Assembly: GCA_922989275.2 (NCBI GenBank) | Contig: OV277869.1 | Coordinates: 23,012,189 to 23,076,188, forward strand | Length of the DNA stretch: 64,000 bases | From: Gari tellinella | Lineage: Eukaryota > Mollusca > Bivalvia > Cardiida > Psammobiidae | Direction: 5' to 3' | Part shown: piece by piece, positions 553 to 64,000 of the stretch | Layout of the letters: each line of letters opens with the position of its first letter | Numbering within the stretch: position 1 is the first letter of the stretch | The notes under the pieces: model-generated | The model's database searches: none | The model's input: the letters and a program-made list of their open reading frames with translations, nothing else | What the model was told of the DNA's origin: nothing | Made by a program: the position numbers and the translations under genes

Positions 553-798
553 CCCTTTACCCCATAGAAGCGACTTTTAGCGAAATCTGATTTATTCCTC
601 CGCTGAAGAAAATAGTTCCAATTTAATCAGTCATGAATATATATTATAGGGAAAATTTTCAATACATTCTAGTACAGGATAGTTTAAAGCAGGCTGAAAG
701 TAAAGCAGAATGCGCCTTAAGCGCATTCTGCTTTACTTTCAACCTGCTTTAAGTAGTAACCTATTTTCAATTCTAGAAATATGCTATCAGGTAAAGGG
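553..798 (-). mobile_element. MITE-A, intact, TTAA-flanked
   Basis: A 246-bp non-autonomous DNA transposon with TTAA on both sides (549-552, 799-802) and CCC...GGG ends. The centre is a core-1 palindrome around CCTTAAGCGC, whose arms read GCAGGCTGAAAGTAAAGCAG and its complement. TTAA targeting and CCC-type ends are what is known for piggyBac-like transposons, so a piggyBac origin is likely. It has no coding capacity. It shares its right TTAA with the next copy. Confidence 0.85.
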
Positions 799-802
799 TT
801 AA

Positions 803-1043
803 GCCTTTACTCCATAGGCTAGTTCTAGTATTGAAGATAGGAGGCCACTTAATGCAGATTGAAAGTAAAGCAGAATGTTCCCTTATGCACATTCTACATT
901 ACTTTGAACCTGCTTTAATTAAGCTACCATCTGCTTGAATTAAGAAAATATTTTTATGGTACATATTCATGTTGGAAATGTTTTTTCAGAGGAGGAATAA
1001 ATGAAATGCGTGAAAATGCATATCTATGGACTGGAGTAAATGG
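803..1043 (+). mobile_element. MITE-A, TTAA-flanked
   Basis: Second of three A copies in a row that share single TTAA sites (799-802 and 1044-1047). The arms are diverged (AATGCAGATTGAAAG) and the palindrome is imperfect, so this copy is older than its left neighbour. Confidence 0.8.
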
Positions 1044-1047
1044 TTAA

Positions 1048-1241
1048 CAAGCCCATTACCCCATAGCCCATTTCTAGTATTGAAGATAGGTGACCACATA
1101 AAGCAGGTTGAAAGGCCTAAAGGCACATTCTGCTTTACTTTCAGCCTGCTTTAAGCTTTTATGACTTTATAAATTGGAACTATTTTCTTAAGTGGAGGAA
1201 TTAATTAAAGGTATAAAAAGGTGTATTTAGGGAGGAATGGA
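1048..1241 (+). mobile_element. MITE-A, internally deleted
   Basis: Third member of the chain, between TTAA 1044-1047 and 1242-1245. Part of the left core arm is missing (GAAAGGCCTAAAGGC), as is most of the segment right of the core, giving 194 bp. Confidence 0.7.
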
Positions 1242-1484
1242 TTAATAAGCAGCAAGCCACATTATGAGTCCTCTATATGCTTCTATATTTATGACAACTG
1301 CACACAATGTGTTTCTGTATCATATAATTAACTTTATCAGTGAATTAAATTTTTTGCATTTTTGTTTGATATCCAAGTTTTGCCTGATTCAAAGGATGGT
1401 AGGCCTTGTTTTCCAAACCTTGTTTACAAACTGCGCCTATTGATGCATCTCTCTCTGAGGTGTAATGAATGAGAATGTAATTTA

Positions 1485-1654
1485 CAGGTCTCCAGATAAG
1501 GGGGAGTAAACTGAACAAAACCAACATTTTCTCACTTATTTTAGCACCAAATCCTATGGTGTTACTACTCATTAGAACCGTCTCGACACCATAGGGTTTA
1601 AAGCAAAATTAAAGATTTTAATTTTTGAAATACTCCCCTTATCTAGAGCCCCTG
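1485..1654. mobile_element. MITE-E between 31-bp direct repeats
   Basis: Ends are CAGGTCTCCAGATAAGGGGG and its near-complement TATCTAGAGCCCCTG. The interior palindrome around ACTCATTAGAA is shortened compared with other E copies. The element lies exactly between two identical 31-bp copies of flanking DNA (1454-1484 and 1657-1687), with two extra T at the right junction. See Findings. Confidence 0.8.
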
Positions 1655-1873
1655 TTTCTGAGGTGTAATGAATGAGAATGTAATTTATGTAGGCTTGTCA
1701 CGGCACACTCTTGTTGTGGTCATTCCTGTGGTCGGCCTGGACATGGCCCAGCATAATTTACCTGATAAGATTAGCCCCATTCTGATCATATGGTTATTCT
1801 CAGGGTGGATTACACTTGAATTATTCCAACAGAAAGTTCAATGAACTAGCATAGAGCAAAGATGTCTGCTTAA

Positions 1874-2133
1874 AATTTCCCTCAATAAATACACCTCTTT
1901 ACGCCTTCAATCTGTTCTTACATTGAAGAAAAACAGTTTCACTTAATTTATACCATCATGAATAATTATGTTTCAAATGAAATATTTTCTTTAACATGTA
2001 TCTAGCAGATGGTATCTTAAAGCAGACTGAAAGTAAGGCAGGATGTGTTCTAGGCACATTACTGCCTTACTTTCAACCTGCTTTAAGTGGTCATCTATTT
2101 TGAAAACTAGAAACGGGCTATGGGGCTAATGGG
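1874..2133 (-). mobile_element. MITE-A with matched arm variants
   Basis: TTAA 1870-1873 and 2134-2137. The right end GGGCTAATGGG is typical, the left end is decayed. Both palindrome arms carry the same change, GTAAGGCAG instead of GTAAAGCAG, which suggests arm-to-arm correction. Confidence 0.75.
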
Positions 2134-2209
2134 TTAAAATTTTCATCCGTAGCAATGCACCATGCTAGTCCTGTCATGCCCTCATAAGACACCGTACTGT
2201 TCACCGACG

Positions 2210-2350
2210 GTGTTTTACCCATTACCACATAAAATGCCCTTTAAAGCCCTTAATTTATTCCTCCACTGAAGAAATTAAATTCCAATTTTATATAGTCATG
2301 AATATGCACCTTAAAAACATGTTCAATATCCTAGTAGGCTAGTACATGGT
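2210..2350 (-). mobile_element. MITE-A left half only
   Basis: Starts near ACCCATTACCACATAAA and runs through the AATTTATTCCTCCACTGAAG segment, then stops before the core. The right half is missing. Confidence 0.6.
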
Positions 2351-2430
2351 AAATCCTAGTTTAAACGGATAAGAATTAGTTTAGGATAAGAAATTCTGTT
2401 TAAAAAATGCATTTGAATAAAAAAAAATAT

Positions 2431-2520
2431 TGAGCTCTGGTGGGAATCGAAACCAGGAGCCGGCATGCATGGACGGAATGCAAAATAGGGAAACCACTTA
2501 GACCTCTGTGATACCGAACC
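2431..2520 (-). repeat. tRNA-like SINE head (degenerate)
   Basis: On the - strand there is a B-box-like GGTTTCGATTCCC (2442-2454) and an A-box-like GGTCTAAGTGG (2494-2504), about 90 bp in all, followed by a T-run (2419-2427) that would end polymerase III transcription. The T-arm does not pair cleanly, so this is not offered as a functional tRNA gene. It is more likely a SINE head with a long-variable-arm ancestor. Confidence 0.4.
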
Positions 2521-2639
2521 ATTCTTATATCTGTGATCGATTTAAAGTATTTCAGTGTGTAGCGATGGAGAGTACATACAACTACATAATTGGCCTTGGG
2601 TTTTTGTCTGAGTCCGTAATCAATTTCTATAGTGTCTTT

Positions 2640-2870
2640 CGACGCTAGGGATAAAATGATGGAAAATATCAAAAAAATAAGATTTGAAGACTTTTCTAGA
2701 GGGTGTTATTAGACTGGCCATATTTTTCCAATGCCAGATGCACGATAATGCTACCATTTTCTTTTATTTTGGCAAATACAACATCTGGTTGCGAGTCGCT
2801 TTAAGGCAGACAGAAAGTAAAGCAGAATGCACCTTAAGGTGCATTCTGCTTTACTTTCAATCTGATTTAA
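2640..2870. repeat. Dispersed repeat copy 2 plus solo core-1 hairpin
   Basis: 2640-2804 aligns to 43-212. A 70-bp core-1 palindrome (2801-2870) starts and ends with TTAA, with a central CACCTTAAGGTG. None of the MITE-A outer sequence is present on either side. The right flank does not resume the copy-1 sequence clearly, so independent insertion of the hairpin is suggested but not shown. Confidence 0.6.
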
Positions 2871-3179
2871 ATGGATGAGGATGCACATAGTGGTCCTTAA
2901 AGACAGGTGACGGCTAATGCAGGGCAAATGTCAAGCAGAATGCTCCTATAGGAGTCTTTTACAAGTATGCCTTTTCTCATGTATAAATCTGCCACCTAGT
3001 ATGACACATACAACAAATTTATCGTCTTTTCAGTGATTGCTTGGCACAGATTTTAAGTACCATACAATATATGTACACAATGACATACAATACATATTTA
3101 TGACATTGTACTACTAGCAGAGGCTGCATGAGTATTTCTGCTAGACCTATATTAGCCCTAGTGCAGTGTTGGCACTTGG

Positions 3180-3429
3180 TACAGTGGAGAATCTGTTATT
3201 CTTTCCCAATAAACGCGTTTACGCTAAAACTATTATTTGCAGTGCAAACAGTTTGGAGCCAGATCAGACGCCAGGTAACCCGGCGTCTGATCAGGCTTCA
3301 AACTGTTTGCCACCAAGATAAACAAGAATTATCAGAATTGTCCCAAAGTTGTTCTTTTCTACGTTTTAGTGCTTTGCGTTTGCGTACGTTTGCGTTTAAA
3401 CGGGAAAGAATAACAGATTCTCCACTGTA
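3180..3429. mobile_element. MITE-L, intact, TA-flanked
   Basis: A 250-bp element bounded by TA, with ends TACAGTGGAGAATCTGTTAT and the exact complement at 3410-3429. TA target and CAGT-type ends fit Tc1/mariner or pogo relatives. The centre is a core-2 palindrome (GCAAACAGTTTGGAGCCAGA and complement around CCAGGTAACCCGG). Other copies are at 13160 and 24294. Confidence 0.85.
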
Positions 3430-7249: not shown

Positions 7250-7444
7250 TAGTTTAACTTCCATATCTTAAACTCGATTAGGTCGAACATACCTGTATTT
7301 CAAAGTTCAAACGTAGCTTAGCCACATTTTAACTTTGAAATACGGGTATGTTTGACTTAACCCAGCATGAAATAATGCAATTCATGTGTCGACAAATCCG
7401 ATCATTTGAATTAAGCGAGTTCGAGGTATCGAGGTTCAACTGTA
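7250..7444. mobile_element. MITE-F, TA-flanked
   Basis: Terminal repeats TAGTTTAACTTCCATATC / GGTATCGAGGTTCAACTGTA, with a second inner palindrome of ATTTCAAAGTT and complement. CAGTCGAACTTCGATATCTCG-type ends with TA target are typical of pogo/Tigger-derived MITEs. Cleaner copies lie at 19058 and 50346. Confidence 0.75.
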
Positions 7445-9136: not shown

Positions 9137-9328
9137 CAGGGCTCCAGATAAAGGGAGTATTTCAAAAACTAAAATCTTTATTTCTGCTTTAAACCCTATG
9201 GTGTCACTATTCATTAGAATTGTCTCGAAGAGACAATTCTAATGAGTAGTAACACCATAGGGTTTGGTTTGAAATGAGTGAGAAAATGTTGTTTTTGTTC
9301 AGTTTTCTCCCCCTTATCTGGAGCCCTG
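9137..9328. mobile_element. MITE-E, intact
   Basis: 192 bp with ends CAGGGCTCCAGATAAAGGGA and TTATCTGGAGCCCTG. The centre is a long palindrome ACTATTCATTAGAATTGTCT and complement. Flanks AATATG / TATATG differ by one base, so a 5-6-bp target duplication is possible. Confidence 0.85.
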
Positions 9329-10239: not shown

Positions 10240-10251
10240 ACCATGGTTTAA

Positions 10252-10464
10252 CCCATTGCATGCTGGGTGATATTTGGCGGCCATTTTTAAATGTTGTCTG
10301 CAGCGGGTATAACTTAAATATTTGCAAAAGATTGTAGCAGTTTCTGATAGAATATTGACTTAGCTGCAAACAGTTTTGATCAGGCCCCACAATGTGGGGC
10401 CTGATCTGAGATCAAGACTGTTTGCCTTGAGGTACACCTAAAAGTGTATCCCGCATGAAATGGG
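10252..10464. mobile_element. MITE-D variant, TTAA-flanked
   Basis: TTAA 10248-10251 and 10465-10468, ends CCCATTGCATGCTGGG / CCCGCATGAAATGGG. Core-2 type palindrome: GCAAACAGTTTTGATCAGGC and complement around CCCCACAATGTGGGG. Confidence 0.8.
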
Positions 10465-10696
10465 TTAATGCCAGTGAGTCTGGTGTTGAAATGGTACATG
10501 ATTGCTAATGCTAATGCCTTGATGTGAATTAGCCACCAGGTATGTCCAATACTTTAATTGGTTCAATCTGGAGCCAGAGCTTGAGAAATGATAGAAATGT
10601 TCTGTTTTCACGGAGGTTTTAATTGAGGCATGTACAACTGTTTAGATAAGCAACAAATTGAAGCATGTGTTTTTAGCTCTTACCAGAGTTGAACTC

Positions 10697-10975: not shown

Positions 10976-11225
10976 TCAACCTGTTTGGATCCTGATCAGA
11001 AGCCTGAGGCTGCGTCTTATCTGGATCCAAATTTGTTTTCAGTGGTAATAATAGTTTCGCCGTTAGTGCAAAGAGTTCATTGTCCTTTCAAAACTGTCTA
11101 ATGGATAAATTCTTAAAAGTCAGTTGTTTGCTTTATTAAAAAAAACCTTAAAAATATGTTAGACATAGGATCCTGATCATACAGCTTTCTACTTTATGTC
11201 TGATCTTGATACAAAATGTTTGTAA
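10976..11225. repeat. Two core-2 (D-type) fragments
   Basis: 10976-11043 pairs CTGTTTGGATCCTGATCAGA with TCTTATCTGGATCCAAAT. 11165-11215 is a second, weaker one (GGATCCTGATCATAC...GTCTGATCTTGATAC). No termini are recognisable. Confidence 0.5.
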
Positions 11226-11612: not shown

Positions 11613-11681
11613 TACAAACGGTGTAGACCCAGATCAGAGGGCTCCTTCAGGAGCCCTCTGTTCTAGGTCTACACTGTTTGC
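11613..11681. repeat. Core-2 hairpin
   Basis: ACAAACGGTGTAGACCCAGA and complement around GGCTCCTTCAGGAGCC. It probably lies in a TTAA-type element ending at GGGTTAAG near 11720, but the left terminus is not clear. Confidence 0.6.
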
Positions 11682-11920
11682 TATAGAAGTATAAATTTAA
11701 TTCCAGCATTATAAGGGTTAAGACAGATGCTGGAAATGTGTACATGTATGTATGTAGGTAATCCTGACAGCTAGTCTAGGCCTTTTGCCATAATATTTTG
11801 TGGGAAATCTTTGGACTTAAGTTTCCAGATGAGTCCTGTTAATATCAGTTTTAATTTGTGGGATATTTGTGAATGGAATGAACAATGTATTTATATTCAA
11901 GACAGAATGGAATATGTGTA

Positions 11921-12053
11921 TTTCTAAAACTGAAATAGTTATGTCTGCATTTAACCCTTGGTGTCACTATACATGTATACTCATTAGAATTGTCTCTTCT
12001 ATCATACAATGTTAACTTTCTTTTAGTGGTCGTAATAGAGAGGTTTTACTGTA
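11921..12053. repeat. MITE-E fragment followed by MITE-G end
   Basis: 11921-12003 carries CATTTAACCCTTGGTGTCAC and CTCATTAGAATTGTCTCTTC from E. 12015-12053 ends with the G terminus TAGTGGTCGTAATAGAGAGG and CTGTA. Both are incomplete. Confidence 0.55.
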
Positions 12054-12625: not shown

Positions 12626-13076
12626 CAATTATCCCATAAAAAACGCCTTTTTATGGCTTTGATTTATTCTTACACCGAAAGAAAAAGTACCATTTTATAC
12701 AGTTATGAATGTGCACCATAAGAAATATTTTCTTTTTCCTAGCACCACTAGGTGTATTGTATTTTACTTTAACCCTTTGAACCCTAGTCCCGCATATAGA
12801 CGTCATTTTCAAACAGTGTATATATAAATAGTACACTTGTCCTGTGCAAACAGTGAAGACCCAGATCAGAGGGCTCCAAAAGGAGCCCTCTGATCAGGGT
12901 CTTCACTGTTTGTCATAATGCCAAACATTGACAAAAACAACCCTTAAAAGTAAAAAATGGACTAGACTTAAATGGAAACTGGAATTGTCCATTTAAAGTC
13001 TTAGGGAGGAAAGAGTTAAACCTGCTGTAAGTGGTCATCTGTCTTCAAAACTAGAAACAAGCTATGGGGTAATGGG
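12626..13076 (-). mobile_element. MITE-A split by MITE-B
   Basis: The left part (12626-12768) runs from the decayed terminus ATTATCCCATAAAAAACGCC to the core. The right part (13016-13076) resumes TTAAACCTGCTGTAAGTGG and ends GGGGTAATGGG. MITE-B occupies 12773-13015 with TTAA on both sides, so B entered after A. Confidence 0.8.
12773..13015 (+). mobile_element. MITE-B, intact, nested in MITE-A
   Basis: 243 bp between TTAA 12769-12772 and 13016-13019. Ends CCCTTTGAACCCTAGTCCC and TTAGGGAGGAAAGAG. Core-2 palindrome of TGCAAACAGTGAAGACCCAG and complement around GGCTCCAAAAGGAGCC. TTAA target and CCCTTT ends suggest piggyBac ancestry. Confidence 0.9.
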
Positions 13077-13159
13077 TTAGCAAAAGTACACAGACACGAT
13101 GCAAATTAAATGTAGATAGGGACAACTTTGAAAATGTTGATAATTTATTCTGACCTGAA

Positions 13160-13279
13160 TGGCAAACAGTTTGGAGCCAGATCACCCAGCATTTAACCAG
13201 GCTCCAAACTGTTTGCAATAGCATTAACTGTTTTTAGTATCAACAAGTTTATTGGGAAGGAATAACATCTCCACTGTTT
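13160..13279. mobile_element. MITE-L, partial
   Basis: Core-2 palindrome GCAAACAGTTTGGAGCCAGA and complement, then TTATTGGGAAGGAATAACAT and CTCCACTGTTTG, matching the L right end. The left terminus is absent. Confidence 0.65.
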
Positions 13280-13289: not shown

Positions 13290-13499
13290 TACAGTAAAAC
13301 CTCTCTATTACGACCACTAAATTTTGCTAATTATTCGGGTGTTTACGATAGGTGACCGCTTAAAGCAAGGTGAAAGTGAAACAGAAAGCTCCTACAGGAG
13401 CTTTCTGTTTCACTGTCACCTTGCTTTAAGCTGCCACCTCTCTATTAGACAATCAATTTGCCTTCGTTTTAGTGGTCGTAATAGCGAGGTTTTACTGTA
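13290..13499. mobile_element. MITE-G, intact, TA-flanked
   Basis: 210 bp from TACAGTAAAACCTCTCTATT to its complement at 13480-13499; TA on both ends. The centre is a core-1 palindrome: GACCGCTTAAAGCAAGGTG and complement around GCTCCTACAGGAGC. TA target and CAGT ends point to Tc1/mariner or pogo, yet the core is homologous to that of TTAA-targeting MITE-A. Confidence 0.9.
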
Positions 13500-14478: not shown

Positions 14479-14618
14479 CCCTTGTCCCCATAGCTTTTCC
14501 ACTAGTGTTAATGCAGGTGGTTGCTTAAAGTAGGTTGGAAGTAAAGCAGAAAACTCTTGAAGGAGCTTTCAATTCTGCTTTACTTCCGGTCTGCTTTAAA
14601 CCTCCACCTGTCAGTATG
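14479..14618. mobile_element. Core-1 element, TTAA left flank (R-like)
   Basis: Starts after TTAA (14475-14478) with CCCTTGTCCCCATAGC. Palindrome GCAGGTGGTTGCTTAAAGTA and complement, ending TAAACCTCCACCTG. The right terminus is uncertain. Confidence 0.5.
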
Positions 14619-14976: not shown

Positions 14977-14998
14977 TGTTTACTGTTGTGTGTTTCAG

Positions 14999-15100
14999 TC
15001 TACAGACTACTGGGTGAGTGTGCACTTCCTGCGGACCAGTGATGACTCTATACTAGATCCAGATGATACTCTCAATGATGTGGTTGATGATAGGGAACAG
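14999..15100 (+). CDS. PARD3: PARD3 (par-3/bazooka) exon: end of N-terminal oligomerisation domain
   Basis: A 102-bp internal exon of 34 whole codons (phase 0 on both sides), bounded by acceptor TTTCAG (14993-14998) and donor GTAGGA (15101). It encodes STDYWVSVHFLRTSDD, SILDPDDTLNDVV and DDREQ. From family knowledge, this aligns to human PAR-3 residues around 40-73 (YWIQVHRLE, then ILDLDDILCDVADD). That is the second half of the PB1-like N-terminal domain through which PAR-3 self-associates into filaments at the apical cortex with PAR-6 and aPKC. The acidic run DPDDTLNDVVDDRE fits the acidic face of that head-to-tail contact. PARD3B is also similar in this region (YWVKIHHLE, ILDPDDVLADVV), but invertebrates generally have a single orthologue. 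The upstream exon with the MKVTVCF start is outside the window. Confidence 0.9.
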
Positions 15101-15236
15101 GTAGGACTGCAGCATAGCTTATTGTCACAGTGCATACGACTTTGTGTAGAAATTATGAAAACTTTAATATTTATGCCTGGCCATGAAGTGATACGAGTCA
15201 GTGAGCGAAATCATGTGAACTATCGTCAAGTCTCTA

Positions 15237-16343: not shown

Positions 16344-16525
16344 CAGGGCTCCAGATAAGGGGAGAATTTCAAAAACTTAAATTTCTATTTCTCAATTGTT
16401 ACTACTCATTAGAATTGTCTCTTCGAGACAATTCTGATGAGTAGTAACACCATAAGATTTGGTGCTGAAATGAGTGAGTAAATGTTGGATTTGATTGCAT
16501 TACTCCCTTTTATCTGGAGCCCTGT
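16344..16525. mobile_element. MITE-E directly upstream of exon
   Basis: Ends CAGGGCTCCAGATAAGGGGA and TTTATCTGGAGCCCTG. Palindrome ACTCATTAGAATTGTCTCTT and complement. It stops 28 bp before the exon at 16554, leaving only the pyrimidine tract TATCTCTTACAG as non-repeat intron. Confidence 0.85.
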
Positions 16526-16776: not shown

Positions 16777-17464
16777 GTAAGTTTGATGGATAATTTTATC
16801 TTGTCTGCTTTGACAAAGATTAGACTAAGTTGTAACTTAATGTTTGTCCATCCTGCTTTAGTGGAGGCATATGACTTTTCTGATGGTGACAGTGCCCAAT
16901 CAACAATAACTAAACTTGAATCACTCAAAATGTTGCTTGTTTCTGAAGGATATTTAGATCTCTTATAAAAACATGTACATTTAAACCTATTGAGCCATAG
17001 GGACCTGAAGTTTGACTCCCGACAACCTAACACTAAAGCCCGTCACTCACCCCTCTTACAAAAAGCTCTGTGACTTTTCTAGATTTATAGGTTTTCCCCA
17101 GATTCTTTCTACAATAGAGAGCTGAAACATTTATCTACATTTATCATTTAAACACAAATGTTCAATAAAAAGCAGTTTATATGCCACATCGTTGAAACTT
17201 AATGCCATTTGCACACTGTTTGAACAAATATATATATGTAATACCATATAAAGGGTTAAAACACAAAAAGCCAATATATAGCCTAAACATCCATTGTTGT
17301 CTGAAAGGTGAGAGCCGGTGTGTCATCCTCTTTGTTTTTTAGTCACTGTTGTTTTTTCGGTAACAATGTATGTCACAATATTGTGTGCACAATGTCATAG
17401 AGAATATGTGAGAAAATAGGTACATAAAGTACAGTCTTACATGTGTTTAGCAGTTATACATTAA

Positions 17465-17708
17465 CCCATTACCTCATAGCCATTTTCTAGTTTTGAAGAC
17501 TGGTGACCACTTAAAGCAGGCTGAAAGTAAAGCAGAATGCGCCTTAAGGCGCATTCTGCTTTACTTTCAGCCTACTTTAAACCATCATCTGCTAGGATAT
17601 AGAAAATATTTCTCATAATACTTATTCATTAGTGTAAAAGGTAGAACTATTTTCTTCAGAGGATTAATAAATTAAAGGCATAAAAATGCGTATTTATGGG
17701 GTAATGGC
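17465..17708 (+). mobile_element. MITE-A, intact reference copy
   Basis: 244 bp, TTAA 17461-17464 and 17709-17712. Ends CCCATTACCTCATAGCC and GGGGTAATGGC. The core-1 palindrome around GCGCCTTAAGGCGC is nearly perfect over about 70 bp. Confidence 0.9.
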
Positions 17709-17800
17709 TTAATGTTGCTCTGTGGTCCTTGAGGCGGGTGACAAAGTTATGCAGAAAGCTTCTGTATGCTGCATTAAGATGCCACTTGTCTTTACCCTTA

Positions 17801-19057: not shown

Positions 19058-19247
19058 TAAGTAGAACTTCAATATCTCGAACTCGCTTAACTCGAACTAT
19101 CCAATAGTTCGACACATGAACTGCATAATTTCATGCTCGGTTAGGTCGAACATACCTATATTTCAAAGTTAAAACGTGGCTAATTTAACTTTGAAATACA
19201 GGTATGTTTGATTTAACCGATTTTTGGGATATCGAAGTTCGACTGTA
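19058..19247. mobile_element. MITE-F, TA-flanked
   Basis: Ends TAAGTAGAACTTCAATATC / GGATATCGAAGTTCGACTGTA, with inner palindrome TATTTCAAAGTTAAAACGTG and complement. The cleaner arms make the pogo/Tigger-like assignment firmer. It lies 182 bp before the exon at 19430. Confidence 0.8.
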
Positions 19248-20162: not shown

Positions 20163-20355
20163 CAGGGCTCCAGATAAGAGGGAGTAAACTGCAAAAATCC
20201 AACATTTTTTCACTTATTTTAGCATCAAATCCTATTGTGTTACTACTCATTAGAATCGTCTCTTCGAGACGATTCTAATGAGTTGTGACACCATAAGGTT
20301 TAAATCAGAAATAAAGATTTTAGTTTTTGAAATCCCCCCCTTGTCTGGAGCCCTG
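20163..20355. mobile_element. MITE-E, intact, 6-bp duplication
   Basis: Ends CAGGGCTCCAGATAAGAGGG / TTGTCTGGAGCCCTG. Perfect inner palindrome ATTAGAATCGTCTCTTCGAG continuing symmetrically. Flanks ATATTG on both sides (20157-20162, 20356-20361). Confidence 0.85.
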
Positions 20356-24293: not shown

Positions 24294-24440
24294 TACAGCG
24301 GAGGAAACGTTATTCTTTCCCAATAGATGCGTTTATGCTAAAACTATTATTTCCATTCCAAACAGTTTGGAGCCAGATCAGACGCCAGGTAACCTGGCGT
24401 CTGATCTGGCTCCAAACTGTTTGCCACTTAGATTAACATG
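24294..24440. mobile_element. MITE-L, left half
   Basis: TACAGCGGAGGAAACGTTAT and a perfect core-2 palindrome (AAACAGTTTGGAGCCAGATC and complement around CGCCAGGTAACCTGGCG). The right terminus is not found. Confidence 0.65.
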
Positions 24441-25876: not shown

Positions 25877-26234
25877 ACAGGACAAGTTAACTCCTCACAG
25901 GTACTTTGTTTGTAAAAGACGAGTATACTTGTTGTAATGGTACCGAATGTGTTAAACATTAAAACTATGATGAAAAGAATTAATACAGCAATGGGTGGCC
26001 ACTGGCCATAAAAACGTGTTACCTAAAGCAATAACAGTGATTTTAGACATGGCTAGTAGCGACTAGTATCATCAGTATGTCACAGTAGCTAGCAACACCG
26101 AGTGGCATATCAAGTATGACAGTTAAGTCATTTCTGATTGTCCTTATGTGGGCAGAATTTAATTAATTAGCAGCCAGTTGCTGGAAAACAGAAATCCCCG
26201 GGGACACTAACTTATTTTTCATACACCAGTTTAA

Positions 26235-26413
26235 CCCTGTTGCTCATTGCTTGTTTTCACTGTCTTAGAGACAGGTGGCTGTTTAAAGCAGGCTAAAAGT
26301 AAAGCAAAAATCTCTCTAAAGGGAGATTTCTGCTTTACTTTAAGCCTGCTTTCTTAGAAGCCACCTGTCTGAATCCAGGAACTGTTTATTATCAATCATT
26401 TGTAAGGACAGGG
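26235..26413. mobile_element. MITE-R, intact, TTAA-flanked
   Basis: 179 bp, TTAA 26231-26234 and 26414-26417. Ends CCCTGTTGCTCATTGC and TTTGTAAGGACAGGG. Core-1 palindrome GACAGGTGGCTGTTTAAAGC and complement around TCTCTCTAAAGGGAGA. Third terminal type carrying core-1. Confidence 0.8.
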
Positions 26414-26504
26414 TTAATATATTTGAGCTGTGCCATGAGAAAAACGAGACCTACATTGCATTGCAAAACATTGTATTGCAAGACGTTGACCTAACCAACC
26501 AAGG

Positions 26505-26697
26505 CAGGGCTCCAGATAAGAGGGAGTAAACTGAACAAATCTAACATTTTCTCACTTATTTCAGCACCAAATCCTATGGTGTTACTACTCATTAGAAACG
26601 TCTCTTCAAGACGATTCTAACGAGTAGTGACACCATAGGGTTTAAAGCAGAAATAAAGATTTTTGTTTTTGAAATACTTCCCTTATCTGGAGCCCTG
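26505..26697. mobile_element. MITE-E, intact
   Basis: Ends CAGGGCTCCAGATAAGAGGG / CTTATCTGGAGCCCTG. Flank CCAAGG occurs directly left (26499-26504) but five bases beyond the right end (ATGGTCCAAGG), an untidy duplication. Confidence 0.85.
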
Positions 26698-30355: not shown

Positions 30356-30560
30356 TAAACCGTAAAACCTCTCTATTACCACCACTACATTGTATTGGTT
30401 ATTAGATGTTACAGATAGGTGACTGCTTAAGACAAGGTGAAAGTAAAACAGAAAGCTCCTTTAGGAGCTTTCTGTTTTACTTTCACCTTGTCTTAAGCTA
30501 TCGCTTGTCTTTTATAGAATCATGTCTACTTTTAATAAGACGTAAAGGGGTTATACTGTA
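30356..30560. mobile_element. MITE-G, near intact
   Basis: CGTAAAACCTCTCTATTACC to AAAGGGGTTATACTGTA. Near-perfect core-1 palindrome 30421-30497 around CTCCTTTAGGAG. Confidence 0.8.
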
Positions 30561-31858: not shown

Positions 31859-32310
31859 TACAGTCAAATGTTATGTTAAGAACCCAATAATTGAAAATAT
31901 TTGGACATGTTTCAATACAGATGGCTGCTTAAGACTGAACAGAAGTAGTACAGAGCTTTTTGGATTACTTTTATTATGCATTAACCCTTTACCCCATAGC
32001 CTGTTTCTAGTATTTAAGATATGTGACTACTTAAAGCAGGTTGAAAGTAAAGCAGAATGTGCCTTAAGGCACATTCTGCTTTACTTTCCGGCTGCTTTAA
32101 GCTACCACTGCTAGAATAAAGAAAATATTTCTTGTAATAGAAATTCATCACTGTATAATTTGGAACTATTTCTTCTCTTGATGAATAATTTAAAGGCGTA
32201 AAATCTAAGGCGTATTTATTGGGTAATAGGTTAAGATGCCACCTGTCTAACGGTCTATAACTATACTTTAAACTGTATTTTAGTGGTCCCTTAATACAGG
32301 TTTGACTGTA
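31859..32310. mobile_element. MITE-H split by MITE-A
   Basis: TACAGTCAAATGTTATGTTA...AATACAGGTTTGACTGTA with TA at both ends. The core-1 type arm GGCTGCTTAAGACTG...ATTATGCA-TTAA is broken by an A copy (31985-32230) and resumes TTAA-GATGCCACCTGTC. Confidence 0.75.
31985..32230 (+). mobile_element. MITE-A, intact, nested in MITE-H
   Basis: 246 bp, TTAA 31981-31984 and 32231-32234, at the TTAA closing the host hairpin. Near-perfect core-1 around GCCTTAAGGC. Confidence 0.9.
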
Positions 32311-33190: not shown

Positions 33191-33284
33191 TGAATTATGG
33201 TAACAAACTGTTTGGAGCCTGATTAGATTCCTAGCTCTAAACTGTTTTCAAAGGACATAGGGTGTTTAATTTAAATGCCCTTAA

Positions 33285-33528
33285 CCTATTACCCCATAGC
33301 CTGTTTCTAGTAATGAAGATAGGTGGCCACTTAAAGCAGGTTAAAAGTAAAGCAGAATGTGCCTTAAGGCACATTCTGCTTTACTTTCAACCTGCTTTAA
33401 GCTACCATCTTCTAGAAAATAGAAATTACTTCTTATGATACATATTCATTACTGTATAAATAAGAACTATTTTCTTCAGTGGGGAAATAAATTAAAGGTG
33501 TTAAAAGGCATATTTATGGGGTAATGGG
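33285..33528 (+). mobile_element. MITE-A, intact
   Basis: 244 bp, TTAA 33281-33284 and 33529-33532, ends CCTATTACCCCATAGCC and GGGGTAATGGG. Confidence 0.9.
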
Positions 33529-33999
33529 TTAATTGGGAAAGAATGATATATGTCTTCATTGCATGTTGAGAGCTAGGTAGAAATGTCAGCTTACAAGCTT
33601 CTGTAGAGGATATGGTTAACAATACCTCATTTTCAGCCTATCTCTCAATGGAGAAGCCCTACCGGAAGAAAGCTGATACCTCAATTTCTGCTACTTATCT
33701 CATGAAAAGGTAGCCTTTCACCTCAGTGTAACTAAATCACAGATTTAGCTCTCTTCAAGCTCTCATAACCTTTCCAATAAGATTAATGTATTTTATGCAT
33801 AAAACCTTGTCTGCTATAAGTATGTCATTTGAACTATTACATTGGCTTACAAGGAAAGAGTGCCTCAGACTAGACTCATATCTCAGAGAGATACTACCAG
33901 CAAACAGTGCAGACTCTGATCAAACAGCTCCTTTTAGGAACTGGAGCCCTCTAATCTTGGTCCACATTGTTTTTAAAAAGCATCAGTACATGCTATTAA

Positions 34000-34234
34000 C
34001 TCTTTAAACACCATGAACATGTTCAAAATATCCGCATTTCATATGCAAACAGTGTAGACCCATATCAGAGGGCTCCTATAGGAGCCCTCTGATCAGGGTC
34101 TACACTGCTTGCTAACTTAGAGCAGTATCTATTAAACTACCCATAATTCCAAGTAGACTGGTTAATGTTTTGGTAACTAAAGATATTCACAAGGGAACAT
34201 AATAACCCACAAGAGTTACTTAGTGTTGAAAGAC
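34000..34234. mobile_element. MITE-Q, intact
   Basis: 235 bp, TTAA 33996-33999 and 34235-34238. Ends CTCTTTAAACACCATGAACA / TTAGTGTTGAAAGAC. Core-2 palindrome ATGCAAACAGTGTAGACCC and complement around GGCTCCTATAGGAGCC, off-centre toward the left. A separate core-2 scrap precedes it at 33898-33975. Confidence 0.85.
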
Positions 34235-34651
34235 TTAAAGTAACATCTATAAGGGATAAGCATGCTCTGTTTCTTCACCCCCAACCCTACAAAGGTGACT
34301 GGTGAGGCCTTTTATCAGCAATATAATCATTGAAGTTATGTTACCAGAGAGTTATCTTTAAATTATCATTTAACAGAACTAAATGTAATTTGAAAAAGAA
34401 AAACTAATCTAGATTCGGAAGCTTGCAGAGAGCCTGCTTCGATCTTAAACATAGTGAAACCAGAGGAGAAAGGGTTGAAAAATAACTCATTGCAGAAACA
34501 TTAATTGGGATGGTGGCTGCTAAAAATGAATCAGGATAAATAATGCAGAAATTTCTATAGGAGTCAATTCATACCTACTTTGCATTACGCAACCACACAT
34601 TGCAATAATGAAAAGAGAATAGATTGGTCAAGTCTTACATTGATTTTAATG

Positions 34652-37809: not shown

Positions 37810-38243
37810 TTAAGTCCCGATACCCACTCAGCTTTCCTGTGGTGGGTAGGGTATCATGAAGTCCCTCTCCTCAACACCTGGGCAGATAGATAATCATTGA
37901 TGCATCAACCAGGACACAAGATATGATAGAGGAAACTAAATGTTTTCTGCTTGACTTTGTAACAATTGTTGAAATCTCTACTTACATAAGCTGGCTTTGC
38001 ATTGTTGGGTTTTGGAACTCAATCCCTATATAACTTCATTAACCCTTTACCCCATAGCCTGTTTCTAATTTTGAAAACAGTTAATTACTTAAAGCAGATT
38101 GAAATTAAAGCAGTATGAGCCTTAAGGCACATTCTACTTTACTTTCAGCCTGCTTTAAACTAAAACCTGCTGGAATAAAGAAAAATTTCCTTATGATACA
38201 TATTATGACTTATAATTGGAACTATTTTCTTCAGGGTATATAT

Positions 38244-38415
38244 ACACATTACCAGTTGACAGAGCGATACAGAGTGATGTATTTAGCTCGAGACGTGTTT
38301 GGCGGAAATAGCCGATCTGACGAGCGCCTTGGCGCGAGTCTGATCGGTTGTTTCCGCCAAAAACGTCGAGAGCTAAATGCAACACTCTGTTGCTCACTGC
38401 CAACTGGTAATGTGT
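38244..38415. mobile_element. 172-bp long palindrome
   Basis: Symmetric about 38329.5: ACACATTACCAGTTG (38244) pairs with CAACTGGTAATGTGT (38415), ATTTAGCTCGAGACG with CGTCGAGAGCTAAAT, and GATCTGACGAGCGCC with GGCGCGAGTCTGATC. GC-rich compared with neighbours. Only copy here; perhaps a MITE with very long arms. Confidence 0.75.
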
Positions 38416-38680
38416 TTATTATATGCCTTGAATACAAACCAGAAACAACTAACTAGTTGTTTAAATAAATTAGTAATTTGAAGCAGAACAAGACTTTTGT
38501 ATGCCACAAAGAATAATGCGGCACTCGTACATGTGCGTAAATGACGTCACTTTAAATCGAAAGCGAGGTCAGAGTAAAATACAAAGTGGCTGATACATTA
38601 GGTGGCTGATACAGACTCTTGTATTTTACTGAGCAGATACACACGGAAACGCTCGATATCATTCGAAGGCATATAATAAA
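38415..38680. mobile_element. 266-bp element with 19-bp inverted ends
   Basis: TTTATTATATGCCTTGAAT (38415-38433) and ATTCGAAGGCATATAATAAA (38661-38680) are complementary apart from one inserted G. It contains a TGACGTCA octamer (38542-38549) that would match CREB/ATF sites, but its significance is unknown. Confidence 0.55.
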
Positions 38681-38745
38681 TAGTAATAAACTGAATGCGC
38701 TAAAAGGCCCTCTTATGGGGGAAAGGGTTAGGTTAAGTTGCTTAA

Positions 38746-38982
38746 CCCTTCTCCTGCTAAATATTCATATATAAAACTCCGCCCACTATGAATATTTATC
38801 ATCTGAAATATTACATTGGCTAGTAAAGTTCTTCCACAGAATAGTGAGCAGACTCGTGCATAAAAATATCCTATAAGAAAATCAGTGCATACCCTGATCA
38901 GACAGCTCCTTAAGGAGCTGTCTGATCTGGGTCTACACTGTTTTCAAAAATTGCCAATACAATTATGCTATTAGGAAAAGGG
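38746..38982. mobile_element. MITE-C, intact reference copy
   Basis: 237 bp, TTAA 38742-38745 and 38983-38986. Ends CCCTTCTCCTGCTAAAT / TGCTATTAGGAAAAGGG. Core-2 palindrome ACCCTGATCAGACAGCTCC and complement around CTTAAG, right of centre. Confidence 0.88.
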
Positions 38983-39143
38983 TTAAGTGAGTCATTTGTG
39001 TAATATTCTCTATCGCTGTGACTAGATACAAATAGTTTAACAAATCATTTCCCATGTAAAGTTTTTGTATCAGTAAAATTTTTATGTTAAAGATTCGGAT
39101 GAACTAAAATAAACCAAAGTTCACATTAATGTTACATGTTTAA

Positions 39144-41894: not shown

Positions 41895-42130
41895 GTTAGA
41901 CCAGTTACAATCACACCTGTAGTCAGCAACCACTTAATAGAAAATATCAATGGATTGTGCTTTAAAACAGGTGGCTGCTTAGTGCAGTACAAAAGTAATG
42001 CAGATATATATATCAAAAGCTCCAGAGGATCTTTCTGCATTACTTGTGTTCTGCATTAAGCTACAACCTGTCTTTAAGAGACCTTCTTCCTTCTTCATTA
42101 AGTGGCTGTTCAGTAGAGGTTTGACTGTAT
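41895..42130. mobile_element. MITE-H, right end clear
   Basis: Hairpin ACAGGTGGCTGCTTAGTGCA and complement-like arm around AAAGCTCCAGAGGATCTTT. Ends TCAGTAGAGGTTTGACTGTA. Confidence 0.65.
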
Positions 42131-42404: not shown

Positions 42405-42762
42405 GTACCAAAAAACTCCTGAATTACGACCACTACGCGAAGTTTAGTTTTAGATGTTTAGGTGTATAAGGCAAGTGGTTTGTTTAAAAGCAACATGAAA
42501 GTAAAGCAGAAAGCTCCTGTAGGAGCTTTCTGCTTTACTTTTATCTTGCTTTAAAGCAGTGACCTGTCTTTACTCCTATGAATTGGGTTTGTTTTCAGTG
42601 GTTGTAATAGAGGGGTTTTACTGTATATGTAAAGTAGGATTTTAAGACCTGGGAATGGTTTACATGTCTTTACTCCTATGAATTGGGTTTATTTTCAGTG
42701 GTTGTAATAGAGGGGTTTTACTGTATATGTAAAGTAGGATTTTAAGACCTGGCAATGGTTTA
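42405..42762. mobile_element. MITE-G with tandemly duplicated right end
   Basis: A core-1 palindrome (CAACATGAAAGTAAAGCAG and complement around CTCCTGTAGGAG) is followed by a right end TAGAGGGGTTTTACTGTA that occurs twice: 42565-42664 and 42665-42762 are a 100-bp tandem duplication with about two or three differences, covering the terminus plus 40 bp of flank. Confidence 0.75.
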
Positions 42763-48874: not shown

Positions 48875-48916
48875 ATAGCTTAAAGCAGGCTGAAAGTAAA
48901 GCAGAATGCGCCTTAA

Positions 48917-49159
48917 CTCTTTCCTCCCTGAAACTTTAAATGGACAAATCCAGTTTCGATTTTAGTCTAGTCCATTTCTGACTTTTAAGGGTTGTTTTTG
49001 TCAATTTTTGGAATTATGACAAACAGTGAAGACCCTGATCAGAGGGCTCCTTTCGGAGCCCTCTGATCTGGGTCTTCACTGTTTGCATAGGACAAGTGTA
49101 CTATTCACATGTACACTGTTTGAAAAGCACGCCTATATGCGGGACTAGGGTTCAAAGGG
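48917..49159 (-). mobile_element. MITE-B, intact, in hairpin centre of MITE-A
   Basis: 243 bp between TTAA 48913-48916 and 49160-49163; the host reads GAATGCGCC-TTAA before and TTAA-GGCGCATTC after. Ends CTCTTTCCTCCCTGAAAC / TAGGGTTCAAAGGG. Core-2 around GGCTCCTTTCGGAGCC. Confidence 0.92.
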
Positions 49160-49345
49160 TTAAGGCGCATTCTACTTTACTTTCAACCTGCTTTAAGTGG
49201 TCACATGTCTTCAAAACTAGAAACATGCAAATGGGTTATGGGTTAAGTGGAGAAGTAAAAGAGATAAATCAATAGTTAATTCTCTGTCTTCTATAGCAGC
49301 AACTTATAATTAGAATTCGAAAATTATTATCTGCTTTACAATTCC

Positions 49346-50312: not shown

Positions 50313-50725
50313 GTCCTTCTTCTGCTGAATATTCATGTAGTGATGTACAGTCGAACTTCGCTATCTCGAATTCGGTTAAGTTGAACATACCCGTATTTCA
50401 AAGTTAAAACGTTGCTAAGCCACGTTTTAACTTCGAAATATGGGTATATGTTCGACTGAACCGAGAATGAAATAATGCATTTCATGTGTCGAACTATGGG
50501 ATAGTTTGAGTTAAGAGAGTTCGAGCTTTCGAAGTTCAACTGTATAAAAGTCTGTACAATGAAATAAATACCTATAATCTGAACTCCCCAGGAGAGATGC
50601 AAACTCATGTCAAACATATCCTATAAGAAAACAGTGCAGACCCTGATCTCAGGAACTGTCCGATATGGGTCTTCACTGATTTCTAAAAGTGTTAGTATAG
50701 TATAATACATTATTTAGTAGAAGGC
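50313..50725. mobile_element. MITE-C split by MITE-F
   Basis: Left part CCTTCTTCTGCTGAATATTC; right part resumes after the TA-flanked F at 50545 and holds CAGTGCAGACCCTGATCTCA, then AGTAGAAGG-CTTAA. C is older than F. Confidence 0.65.
50346..50544. mobile_element. MITE-F, intact reference copy
   Basis: 199 bp TACAGTCGAACTTCGCTATC to CTTTCGAAGTTCAACTGTA, TA at both ends. The inner palindrome TATTTCAAAGTTAAAACGTT is nearly perfect. Confidence 0.87.
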
Positions 50726-55112: not shown

Positions 55113-55177
55113 TTAAATATCTGCCTAATTGTCTACTATAGTCTTTCACAGAGGTGATCTAATTTTGCCATTCCGTT

Positions 55178-55401: not shown

Positions 55402-55405
55402 TTAA

Positions 55406-55623
55406 CGCTTTGCACGCTAGCGGGGGATATACCTGCCATAGTGATTATCTCGGCAAACAGATAAGATCCAGATGAGACGCCGCGTAATGCGGCGTCTCAT
55501 CAGGATCCAAACTGTTTGCCATTTTTGACACTGAATTTAAAAGAAATTTTGAAAATTCTAATTTTAGAACAATAGTGGACGACAATTTGTTGCAGACGAA
55601 AAAATTACCCAGCATGCAAAGAG
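55406..55623. mobile_element. MITE-D, intact
   Basis: 218 bp, TTAA 55402-55405 and 55624-55627. CGCTTTGCACGCTAGCG to CCAGCATGCAAAGAG. Core-2: ACAGATAAGATCCAGATGAG and complement-like arm around GCCGCGTAATGCGGC. Shares its left TTAA with MITE-C. Confidence 0.87.
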
Positions 55624-56059
55624 TTAATAGAGTTGGCAGTTTCATTTGGCAAATTGTCTACAACAGCATTTTACTGAATTGATCTATTTGCCATTCCGTA
55701 TAGAAAATATCATACAAGTGTCAAACAGTTTGCAAAATAACATTCACACTTGCGCCTGTAGCATTTGAAAGGATTTAAATTATGCAATAAAGATAAATCA
55801 GAACTGACTTAATGTAAATTACAATACGGTATCAATGTCTATATTAAGCTTTATGCTTCTAGCATACCAGTAAGTGTTTAAGTTAATGGCATTTGCATTT
55901 GTCAACAATTTGGATCCTGATCTGATGTACTGAGATTGATCACGGGTATAAACTGTTTGTCAGGTACCATATTTCTAGGAATGTAAATTAAAAGGATTAG
56001 AATCAAGTCTAAAACTTTTGAAGCTGATGTTTTATTCAGTGTTAAGAAATTAGCTTTAA

Positions 56060-59170: not shown

Positions 59171-59178
59171 TACTTCAT

Positions 59179-59375
59179 CAGGGCTCCAGATAAGGGGAGT
59201 ATTTCAAAAACTAAAATCTTTATTTCTATTTAAACCCTATGGTGTCACTACTCATTAGAATCGTCTCGAAGAGACGATTCTAATGAGTAGTAACACCATA
59301 GGATTTGCTGCAGTATTAGTGAGAAAATGTTGGATTTGTTCAGAGTTATATACTTTCCCTTTTCTGGAACCCAGG
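59179..59375. mobile_element. MITE-E, intact
   Basis: CAGGGCTCCAGATAAGGGGA to TTTTCTGGAACCCAG. Perfect palindrome ACTCATTAGAATCGTCTCGA and complement (59249-59289). Flanks CTTCAT and TTTCAT, the latter one base off the end. Confidence 0.83.
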
Positions 59376-61020: not shown

Positions 61021-61023
61021 TTT

Positions 61024-61230
61024 ACCCTTAATATCTTGCTACGCCAGAATTGTTAAGCTTTTGCAAACAGCTTGGATGCAGATTAGACGCTGGGTAATGC
61101 GGCGTCTAATCTGGATCCAAACTGTTTGTCATTCATATTCAATTTTTCTTCAGTGAGTTTTATAATAAAGCATGTAAACTGATTTTGAAATTTTTCACAG
61201 ACGATATATTTCAAGCAGACAACTCAGCAT
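61024..61230. mobile_element. MITE-D, ends worn
   Basis: ACCCTTAATATCTTGCTACG to CAACTCAGCATAAGGTTG. Core-2 at about 61061-61131 around GACGCTGGGTAATGCGGCGTC. GCAGACAACTCAGCAT matches the D right side. Confidence 0.65.
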
Positions 61231-61545
61231 AAGGTTGAAGCGATGCAAAGTCATTATTCAGGTGTTTTTTGCCATGGATGCAGGGCATGCAATGAAAAGG
61301 AAATGATTGCGCAATATGTCAGACAGCCAAGTTTGTCAAGTCAGTCTTTCATCTTTCCACCATTGCCATCAGTGCAATTTCATCGTGATTGGAACCCTCT
61401 GATCTGGGTCTACACTGTTTTCTAAGGATATTTATATTTACTGATGAATGACAAGCCTCTCATGATCAAGGGGTGTGTCCCAAAAATATTTAAAATTATA
61501 ACTAGCAGTAAAGGGGAATAGACTTATTTCAGATGGCTCCTTAAC

Positions 61546-61853
61546 CCCATAATTACACCTTTTTATGCCTTTAATTTATTCCTCTGCTAAAGAAAATGGT
61601 TCCAATTTATATACAGTCATGAATATGTATTATAAGAAATATTTTCTATATCCTAGCAAATAAAGCTTAAAGCAGGCTGAAAGTAAAGCAGAATGCGCCT
61701 TAAGGCGCATTCTGCTTAACGTTCAACCTGCTTTAAGTAGTCACCAATGTTCGAAACTAGAAACAGGCTATGGGGTAATGGGTTAACTTGTTACTACTCA
61801 TTAGAATCATCTGATCAAAGAGACCATTCTAATTAGTAGTCACAACATATGGT
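61546..61853 (-). mobile_element. MITE-A followed by MITE-E centre
   Basis: A is 61546-61782 (TTAA 61542-61545, 61783-61786), left end shortened to CCCCATAATTACACC, right end GGGGTAATGGG. Directly after, 61789-61853 is an E palindrome fragment ACTACTCATTAGAATCATCT and complement. Confidence 0.75.
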
Positions 61854-62334
61854 CTAGTGGTTAGGTGGAGACATAATGGGAGACAAACTGTTGGACTGTT
61901 TTGTTTTATTTACATTTTTACCTGAAGCAATGTTAGATATGTGTAGGAGGTCAAGTGTTATAATGTAACCATTAGCTGATATATCTGACACAATCATTGG
62001 AACCTCTCAGCTTCATATCTCAGGAAGTAGAAGTATGATAATATAAACTATAAAACCACCTGCCACCATCCTGGTTGTTCCTTCGATACCAGGGCTCCAG
62101 ATAAGGGTGAGTGAACTGAACAAATCGAGCAATTACTCACTCATTTAAGCACTAAATCCTATGGTGCTACTACTCATTAGAATCGTCTCTTCGAGACGAT
62201 TCTAATGAGTAGTGACACCATAGGGTTTAACCCTTTCCCCAATAAAAGCGACTTTTAGCGCAATAAATTTATTCCTCCGCTAAAGAAAATAGTTCCAATT
62301 TATACAGTCATGAATATAATTGATAATAGTTATT

Positions 62335-63605
62335 TTTAGCTCACCTGAGCCAAAGGCTCAAGGTGAGCTATTGGGATGGCCCTGTGTCCGTCGTCCGTCG
62401 TCGTCCGTCGTTAGTCGTGCGCCGTCCGTCGTCGTTAACAATTGCTTCAAATGACATCTCCTCCTATACCGCTTGACAGAATTCAACCAAACTTTACAGA
62501 AATGTTCCTTGGGTCAAGCTCTTTCAAATTTGTTCAAAGAATTAAAAACAATGCAGAACTCTGGTTGCCATGGCAACCAAAGTGAAAAAATAAGGAAATC
62601 TTAAAAAATCTTCTTGTCAAAAACTGCAAGGGCCGGAGCTTAGATATTTGGCACATAGCATCATCCACAGGTCCTCTATCAAGTTTGTTCAAATTATGCC
62701 CCTGGGGTCAAAATTGGCCCCGCCCCGGGGGTCACAGTTTTACATTGAGTTATATAGTGGAATTTTCAAATGTCTTCTTCTCTGAAACTAATGTGGCCAG
62801 AGCTTTGATATTTGGCATGGTGACACTTCTAGATGTCCTATACCAAAATTGTTCAAACAGTTTTGGTCGATTGCATAACTAGGTCACAGGAGCTAAAAAT
62901 AGATTTTTTTCATTGAAAACTTAAAAAATCTTCTTGTCTGAAACTGCAAAGGCCAGAGCTTAGATATTTGGCACATAGCATCGCCTACAGGTCCTCTATC
63001 AAGTTTGTTCAAATTATGCCCCTGGGGTCAAAGTTGGCCCCGCCCCGGGGGTCACAGCTTTACATAGAGTTATATAGTGAAATTTTCATACGTCTTCTTC
63101 TCTGAAACTAATATGGCCAGAGCTTTGATATTTGGCATGTTGACACTTCTAGATGTCCTATATCAAAATTTTTCAAATGGTTCCGGTCGATTGCATAACT
63201 AGGTCACAGGAGCTAAAAATAGATTTTTTTCAATGAAAAGTTAAAAAATCTTCTTGTCTGAAACTACAAAGGCCAGAGCTTAGATATTTGGCACATAGCA
63301 TCGCCTACAGGTCCTCTATCAAGTTTGTTCAAATTATGCCCCTAGGGACAAAATTGGCCCCGCCCGGGGGGGGTCACAGTTTAACATAGAGTTATAGAGT
63401 GAACTTTTCAAACGTCTTGTTCTCTGACACTAATATGACCAGAGCTTTTATATTCGGTATGGTGACACTTTTAAATATACTTTACATATTTTGTTCAAAT
63501 TGTTCTGGTCTGTTGCATATCTAGGTCAGTCCTGGACATAAATCATTATCTCCATTTTTTCAGCTATTCTCAGGTGAGCGAAATATGCCCCATGGGGCTC
63601 TTGTT
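62335..63605 (+). mobile_element. Helentron-like element, copy 2
   Basis: 1.27 kb, same family as 39418-40678. 5' hairpin 62338-62369, CCGTCGTCGTCCGTCG stretch, three 320-bp units (ATTATGCCCC landmark at 62693, 63013, 63333), CTCAGGTGAGC, GCCCCATGGGGC (63587-63598), TCTTGTT. Inserted in a T-rich site of MITE-A (AATAGTTATT before, AGTTTACTTGC after). Confidence 0.78.
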
Positions 63606-63630
63606 AGTTTACTTGCAGATTATAGCTTAA

Positions 63631-63873
63631 CCATTTGAACCCTAGTCCCGCATATAGGCGTCCTTTTCAAACAGTATGCATGTGAAAAGTGCACTTATGC
63701 TATGCAAACAGTGAATACCCAGATCAAAGGGCTCTTTACAGAGCCCTCTGATCTGGGTCTTCACTGTTTGTCATAATGACAAATATTGACAAAAACAACC
63801 CTTAAAAGTCAGAAATGGACTATACTCAAATGGAAACTGGAGTTGTCCAAATTAAGTTTTAGGGAGGAAAGAG
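63631..63873 (+). mobile_element. MITE-B, intact, in arm of MITE-A
   Basis: 243 bp, TTAA 63627-63630 and 63874-63877, placed at the TTAA opening the host's core-1 arm (TATAGC-TTAA / TTAA-AGCAGGTTG). CCATTTGAACCCTAGTCCC to TTAGGGAGGAAAGAG. Core-2 around GGGCTCTTTACAGAGCCC. Confidence 0.9.
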
Positions 63874-64000
63874 TTAAAGCAGGTTGAAAGTAAAGGCACA
63901 TTCTGCTTTACTTTCAACCAACTTTAAGTAGCCATCTATCTTTAAAACTAGAAACAGGCTATGAAGTAAAGGGTTAAAGCAGAAATAAAGATTTTAGTGT

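Follow-up and report, generated by a model that had tools for sequence, protein, structure and literature searches.

In the 64-kb stretch of the Gari tellinella genome analysed here (the window; contig OV277869.1, positions 23,012,189 to 23,076,188), miniature inverted-repeat transposable elements (MITEs) with different ends share the same long palindromic cores. We put the probability at roughly 0.5 that these are ordinary cut-and-paste MITEs with at least two end types, built around long hairpins that are kept and rarely passed between end types. The evidence favours such hairpin-centred elements of known kinds, with rare passage of the core, over the undescribed, self-moving modular foldback system envisaged in the preliminary description of this DNA.

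The window is 64% A+T, and self-comparison shows that about 57% of it has a match elsewhere in the same window. It contains 69 long ungapped palindromes (score at least 18, arms 25-90), while each of 3 Markov or shuffled sequences contains 0. By our reading of the list, 34 of the palindromes are core-1 (~98 bp, with TTAA in each arm and at the apex) and 23 are core-2 (~66 bp); 7 are core-3 and 3 core-4. Arm profiles detected 118 arm matches at 74 loci for core-1 (44 paired), and 103 at 65 loci for core-2 (38 paired). Folded as single-stranded DNA, four core sequences give nearly perfect hairpins of -36 to -43 kcal/mol (z -13 to -17).

The elements enclosing these cores are short and non-coding (A consensus about 256 bp, L 246 bp, H 199-216 bp), with terminal inverted repeats (TIRs) and a fixed target duplication. 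A and B copies are flanked by TTAA, and for some of them the empty site can be read; TA is found on both sides of the elements at 13292-13497 and 3182-3427. The TTAA elements carry TTAACCCTTT or TTAACCCATT ends, a CCC(T) start that we take to mark the piggyBac superfamily, and are probably piggyBac-like. The TA elements have CAGTAAAACCTC or CAGTGGAGAATC ends; CAGT ends presumably mark mariner, and judged from target and termini these elements are probably Tc1/mariner-like. No closed open reading frame of 150 amino acids (codons) is present in the window. The family letters D, E, F and M are our own, and need not equal the C, D and Q of the preliminary description.

Family A, with 33 copies covering at least 200 model positions, starts TTAACCCTTTACCCCATAG and closes with a matching inverted repeat. 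Core-1 lies inside A, inside the TTAA element R and inside a TTAA element from 14475 onward; the same palindrome occurs in four TA elements with CAGTAAAACCTC-like ends. The elements concerned include:

33281..33532, plus strand: family A element, core-1 at 33330-33401 (A profile 268 bits; palindrome scan)
17461..17712, plus strand: family A element with core-1 (A profile 262 bits)
26231..26417, plus strand: R, TTAA element with A-like left end, core-1 at about 26269-26372 (end and arm comparison)
13292..13497, unstranded: TA element H, CAGTAAAACCTC ends, TA on both sides, core-1 at 13345-13442 (ends, TA check; arm z 15.0 and 10.6)
30360..30558, unstranded: H copy with core-1, left TA reading AA, right TA intact (ends, sequence, arm match)
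42408..42623, unstranded: H copy with core-1, left end decayed (ends, sequence, arm match)
41902..42127, unstranded: divergent TA element G, core-1 degraded, left TA lost (arm z 5.2, 5.1)

The eight arms of the four TA elements match the A arm with z 5.1-15.0, and 0 or 1 of 1000 dinucleotide shuffles is as good, confirming the earlier placement of core-1 inside both the TTAA elements A and R and the TA elements G and H. Comparison of seven end stretches (five TA, two R) with the A ends gave z -1.5 to 2.5, with the exception of the R left end, which matches A (z 6.2), and R therefore belongs with A. Hence, the claim that the terminal repeats of these families are unlike stands for TTAA against TA ends and fails for R. 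Beyond the palindrome borders, the matches of TA copies are mostly to other TA copies, and on the left side A, R and the copy at 14558 resemble one another. Derivation of the core-1 arms from the TA family's own subterminal repeats was considered and not borne out, as five end stretches from the four TA copies score only z -0.9 to 1.9 against the A arms. The right part of one H element seems to be tandemly duplicated at 42520-42723, with like ends ~100 bp apart (42623 and 42723).

Core-2 is found in the TTAA families B, D, E, F and M as well as in the TA element L, which has a perfect 26-bp TIR:

12769..13019, plus strand: family B element, core-2 at 12847-12912, nested in the core-1 of an A element (ends, flank joining)
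33996..34238, plus strand: family D element (TTAA), core-2 at 34045-34112 (arm profile, end pairs)
38742..38986, minus strand: family E element (TTAA), core-2 at 38879-38944 (arm profile, end pairs)
11615..11680, unstranded: core-2 of a family F element (palindrome scan, arm profile)
55402..55627, plus strand: family M element (TTAA), core-2 of the GGATCC/GACGCCGC variety (arm profile, end pairs)
10248..10468, plus strand: TTAA element with a core-2 of different apex (CAGGCCCCACA), assigned by eye (TTAA end pair)
3182..3427, plus strand: L, TA element, CAGTGGAGAATCTGTTATTCTTTCCC TIR, TA on both sides, core-2 at 3244-3310 (ends, TA check, arm match)
24296..24423, plus strand: L copy with core-2 at 24359-24423; left end present, no right end found (ends, arm match)
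13150..13276, minus strand: L copy with core-2, inner limit approximate, end followed by TT and not TA (sequence, TA check)

Two L copies were compared with eight TTAA copies, giving core-2 arm z scores of 6.7-14.5, somewhat inflated because each is the best of four arm pairings, with 0 of 1000 shuffles as good in all 16 comparisons. The assignment of core-2 to several TTAA families and to L is thus upheld, and for neither core do the arms align as poorly as shuffled ones, the outcome that was to refute the shared cores. As a negative control, the A core-1 arm was compared with 8 core-2 copies (z -1.0 to 2.6). The A core-1 arm thus shows no match to core-2 arms. At the apex, however, H core-1 and E core-2 have 11-12 of 14 bases in common (three comparisons, 0-3 of 20000 shuffles), and H core-1 has 9-11 of 14 in common with the core-2 of B, D, F or U (twelve comparisons, 0-411 of 20000). 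Either the apex was exchanged or both cores were drawn to a similar stem end.

Inward-facing TTAA end pairs (n = 42, one mismatch allowed in the ends, such that some pairs are approximate or due to chance) enclose core-1 arms in 21 cases, core-2 arms in 13, both in 1 and neither in 7. The 35 of 42 pairs with a core arm compare with a mean of 16.9 and a maximum of 27 for random intervals of the same lengths (2000 draws), and the 31 pairs with two or more arms with a random mean of 7.7. By eye, the arm-less pairs comprise the variant core-2 element at 10248-10468, an A end with a different insertion at 62227, and otherwise other repeats or chance pairs.

Furthermore, the inner arms of the hairpin diverge less than its surroundings. 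At non-CpG sites of the 33 A copies, the inner arms differ from the consensus by 0.064 per site and the flanks by 0.145 (p 5e-9); this deficit persists when gappy columns are avoided (0.064 v 0.145), and A/T sites outside CpA/TpG show it as well (0.041 v 0.125). The apex diverges by 0.104, and the whole core is nearer to the consensus than the flanks in 28 of the 33 copies. The earlier suggestion that cores are selected has support in so far as the cores look better conserved than what surrounds them: selection in the multiplying lineage would produce such a pattern, and a lower mutation rate in the paired stem might do so too. Free correction of one arm by the other was not supported as the cause, complementary double changes being in excess (6 of 970 pair cells against 1.97 permuted, with 14 of 2000 permutations reaching 6) and far too few. 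An argument from singletons, that equal private mutations in core and flank place the difference before insertion, was discarded: singletons saturate at 15% divergence, so private-mutation counts cannot time the difference. Trees built from parts of A do not date it either, core changes being fewer on inner and on terminal branches alike.

A route by which a hairpin could come under other ends is suggested by nesting, since core-bearing TTAA elements land inside other MITEs. Joining the flanks of 41 TTAA elements places the junction inside core-1 for 8 and in an A flank for 1 more, with some calls resting on weak profile matches of 13-25 bits. The following elements illustrate this, the clearest case being the B element at 48913-49163:

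48913..49163 (within 48876-49248), minus strand: family B element at the apex TTAA of an A core-1; the empty site is clean and the joined flanks form an unbroken core-1 (A profile 128 bits across the joint)
63627..63877, plus strand: family B element in an arm TTAA of core-1 (A profile 71 bits across the joint)
31981..32234, plus strand: family A element (TTAA, core-1) that occupies a TTAA site within a TA element's core-1 (A profile 245 bits; TTAA on both sides; junction in a 13.5-bit core-1 arm match)

We propose that the hairpin may be a cis-acting part retained in multiplying lineages, and that the DNA separating it from the ends undergoes turnover. Nested composites would then recombine or erode until new ends and the hairpin remain, which would explain why a hairpin is now and then found under other ends.

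Maximum-likelihood trees of 28 core-1 and 26 core-2 sequences from the window are consistent with transfer being rare, as the end-class label (TTAA or TA) changes a single time on each. The core-1 tree strongly separates A (together with 2835) from R, 14562, G, H and 60426 (97/99), the split of TTAA from TA as such being weakly supported (68/19). The core-2 tree divides M and L from the other four families, B, D, E and F (99/98); L groups with two M copies (81/82), and the change of label has support of 86/90, which fits a transfer from M-type TTAA elements to L. In keeping with this, the L left flank resembles that of the M copy at 11007 when anchored on the core (1 and 3 of 20000 shuffles for the two L copies), a score reached by 1 of 8000 random window positions.

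The extent of the shared piece can be read from the core-2 identity profile. Between TTAA families, mean identity is 0.63-0.80 in the outer 30 arm bases; for the 5 bases next to the palindrome it is 0.45-0.59 between like sides and 0.21-0.32 between opposite sides, and further out it is 0.23-0.39; the shared piece is therefore the palindrome with about five bases on each side, in fixed orientation. Overall, similarity between elements fades within about 5-10 bp of the palindrome, and the family flanks of core-2 elements are mostly unlike, apart from the exceptions given below; the TTAA and TA groups have unrelated ends and, for the most part, unrelated subterminal DNA. Comparison of these sequences thus supports different histories for cores and ends. 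The earlier notion that cores cut across end classes stands to that extent; the ongoing conversion or hairpin mobility added to it is not supported, given one change per tree and no solo core with an empty site seen (the genome at large was not searched).

Several observations weigh against the proposed account. Nesting in core-1 is no commoner than the supply of TTAA predicts: core-1 stretches contain 142 of the 723 non-terminal TTAA sites (19.6% expected; p 0.42 for 9 of 41 and 0.57 for 8 of 41). Core-bearing elements therefore land inside other core-bearing elements at the expected rate, without preference for cores. The core-1 flanks lend no support to nesting between the TA and TTAA groups, as among 48 core-anchored TTAA versus TA flank pairs 3 reach p <= 0.05 and 2 reach p <= 0.01 (R right with 42519 right, and T right with 42020 right), about what chance gives. 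The L-M flank match rests on one M copy, chosen as the best pair, and an unanchored profile search with the L flank does not find M 11007. Similarity also stops more abruptly at the edge of the palindrome than expected if nested composites had eroded at random. Regarding divergence, the A outer arms (0.178) show no reduction relative to the flanks, and the low value of the inner arms could be an effect of mutation or repair. Finally, some core-2 flanks are alike in the way plain descent would make them, with z up to 7.6 for B-F, 6.1 for B-M and 4.6 for B-D (each the highest of many pairs, from 100 shuffles).

The last point bears equally on a stricter modular reading, to which we give tentative credence as a possible but unlikely alternative. 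Here the hairpin would be a separate heritable module, selected to spread in its own right and repeatedly re-capped by ends of different transposase classes, its apex (CAGANNGCTCCT-type) exchanged between core-1 and core-2, with families assembled from ends and cores. Likeness of the B-L (z 4.2) and F-M (z 4.1) flanks, obtained in the same way, also counts against pure modularity.

Template switching or conversion, in which a gap-repair strand would jump between like hairpins after excision and swap cores or ends at their borders, likewise seems possible though on the improbable side. It would account for the fading of similarity at the palindrome border, for several TTAA families having like core-2 and mostly unlike flanks, for the H/E apex agreement, as if the apex were exchangeable, and for apex gaps in several A copies. 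A single change of end class per core tree argues against it, no chimera was caught in the act, and the same-side flank likeness of ~5-10 bases indicates that the piece passed on was not a bare hairpin.

Common descent of all families with one core from a single element, whose ends and flanks diverged gradually, is a doubtful explanation. The TTAA families do share TTAACCCTTT-like ends and same-side flank remnants, and the one-sided flank likeness listed above (B-F, B-M, B-D and B-L) is of the kind expected. However, identity between B and D is 0.75-1.00 per 10-base bin along the arms, against 0.25-0.48 in the flanks beyond +15. Common descent is disfavoured for TTAA versus TA elements in particular: their ends are dissimilar and their target duplications differ, such that gradual conversion of one into the other is not easy.

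That the hairpin moves by itself, as a tiny mobile or foldback unit inserting into MITEs, is very improbable. A single candidate could represent such a unit:

2801..2870, unstranded: inner core-1 hairpin alone (TTTAA to TTTAA), without outer arms, beside repeat X; the only candidate solo hairpin

This hairpin lies between two TTTAA sites, core-1 arms have TTAA on both sides, and the copies of repeat X (15-213 and 2627-2805) stop matching exactly at the hairpin edge, all of which would suit a mobile unit. In contrast, only the left flank is present in the second repeat X copy; the right flank does not continue repeat X, and there is therefore no empty site. Both arm matches start from model position 14 or later at 3 of the 44 paired core-1 loci (2798, 21807 and 60392), and as 21807 has an A right flank and 60392 is degraded, one solo candidate remains. 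No solo core with a clean empty site was seen in the window, where no systematic search was made. Moreover, TTAA end pairs enclose arms twice as often as random intervals do, which is unexpected for a random inserter. Chance resemblance of palindromes can be dismissed as practically negligible, refuted by the shuffles for both palindrome counts and arm z scores.

Palindromic piggyBac-like and Tc1/mariner-like MITEs are short and non-coding, with TIRs, TTAA or TA duplications, a hairpin interior and many copies. The elements described here share their size, TIRs, duplications, hairpin interior and copy number, and differ in that one hairpin stands behind two end classes while TTAA ends hold two hairpins. 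Foldback elements such as Galileo, Tetris and FB resemble them in their long foldback-forming inverted repeats. In foldback elements the terminal repeats themselves fold; here the palindrome is internal, so that it is a short hairpin in the centre that folds, and separate short repeats form the ends, the TA ends being unlike the core arms (z -0.9 to 1.9). The premise of the preliminary description, that MITEs inherit ends and interior from one parent, was too strong, as many MITEs share only their ends with an autonomous partner. A composite origin is on record for MER6, which has mariner ends with a fish short interspersed nuclear element (SINE) domain inside (PMC6887750). It is similar in its conserved central domain under unrelated ends of Tc1/mariner type, and different in that its domain derives from a SINE (the V-SINE highly conserved domain), whereas the piece shared in the window is a long palindrome, with MITEs as the partners on both sides. 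MITEs of the bivalve pearl family (PMC5139131) are likewise described as modular non-autonomous mollusc elements, and DTC84 has a conserved palindrome near the repeat junction; they differ in their satellite-like tandem repeats, and one hairpin core under different ends was not met in the passages available. Titles and abstract openings in the open-access literature yielded no description of one hairpin core under different MITE ends.

The window is an animal gene region, as indicated by a host-gene exon encoding a Par-3 N-terminal domain:

14996..15106, plus strand: host-gene exon, Par-3 N-terminal domain (Pfam PF12053, E 8.2e-11; PDB Par-3 chains, E about 1e-5)

Two further putative exon stretches in the window gave no Pfam match. 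This Par-3 gene region is dense in MITEs, and further repeats accompany those discussed above. Core-3 (CTATGGTGTTACTACTCATTAGAATCGTCTC...) lies in elements beginning CAGGGCTCCAGATAAGG with CAGGGCTCCAGATAAGGG ends and no clearly readable target duplication (9137-9328, 16344-16524, 20163-20355, 26505-26697, 59179-59374 and from 62090), and core-4 (GGTCGAACATACCTGTATTTCAAAGTTAAAACGTGGC...) in TA elements beginning CAGTCGAACTTC with CAGTCGAACTTCG-like ends (7250-7442, 19059-19245 and 50348-50542). At 11918-12051 an H-type end (CAGTAAAACCTC...) is followed by half of core-3, either a truncated neighbour or a further combination of end and core. A 180-bp near-palindrome (38240-38419; arms 89 bp, 82%) adjoins an A element, and a AGCTCACCTGAGCC...GGTGAGCTATTGGGATGG repeat at approximately 62320-62480 adjoins an A end and resembles a further mobile element. 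An Rfam search returned 0 matches, pattern scans of viral contigs likewise 0, and phage and plasmid searches nothing; a scan of genome contigs gave 2 matches in bacterial coding regions, judged by eye to be chance.

To our knowledge, why MITEs so often form hairpins, and whether these aid their spread, is an open question. The window offers a natural swap, in which the same hairpin stands under two kinds of end and two hairpins occur with one kind of end. Should the hairpin prove to be the kept part, MITE families would be better classified with ends and cores treated as separate traits, and a direct test could be made of how the core affects mobility.

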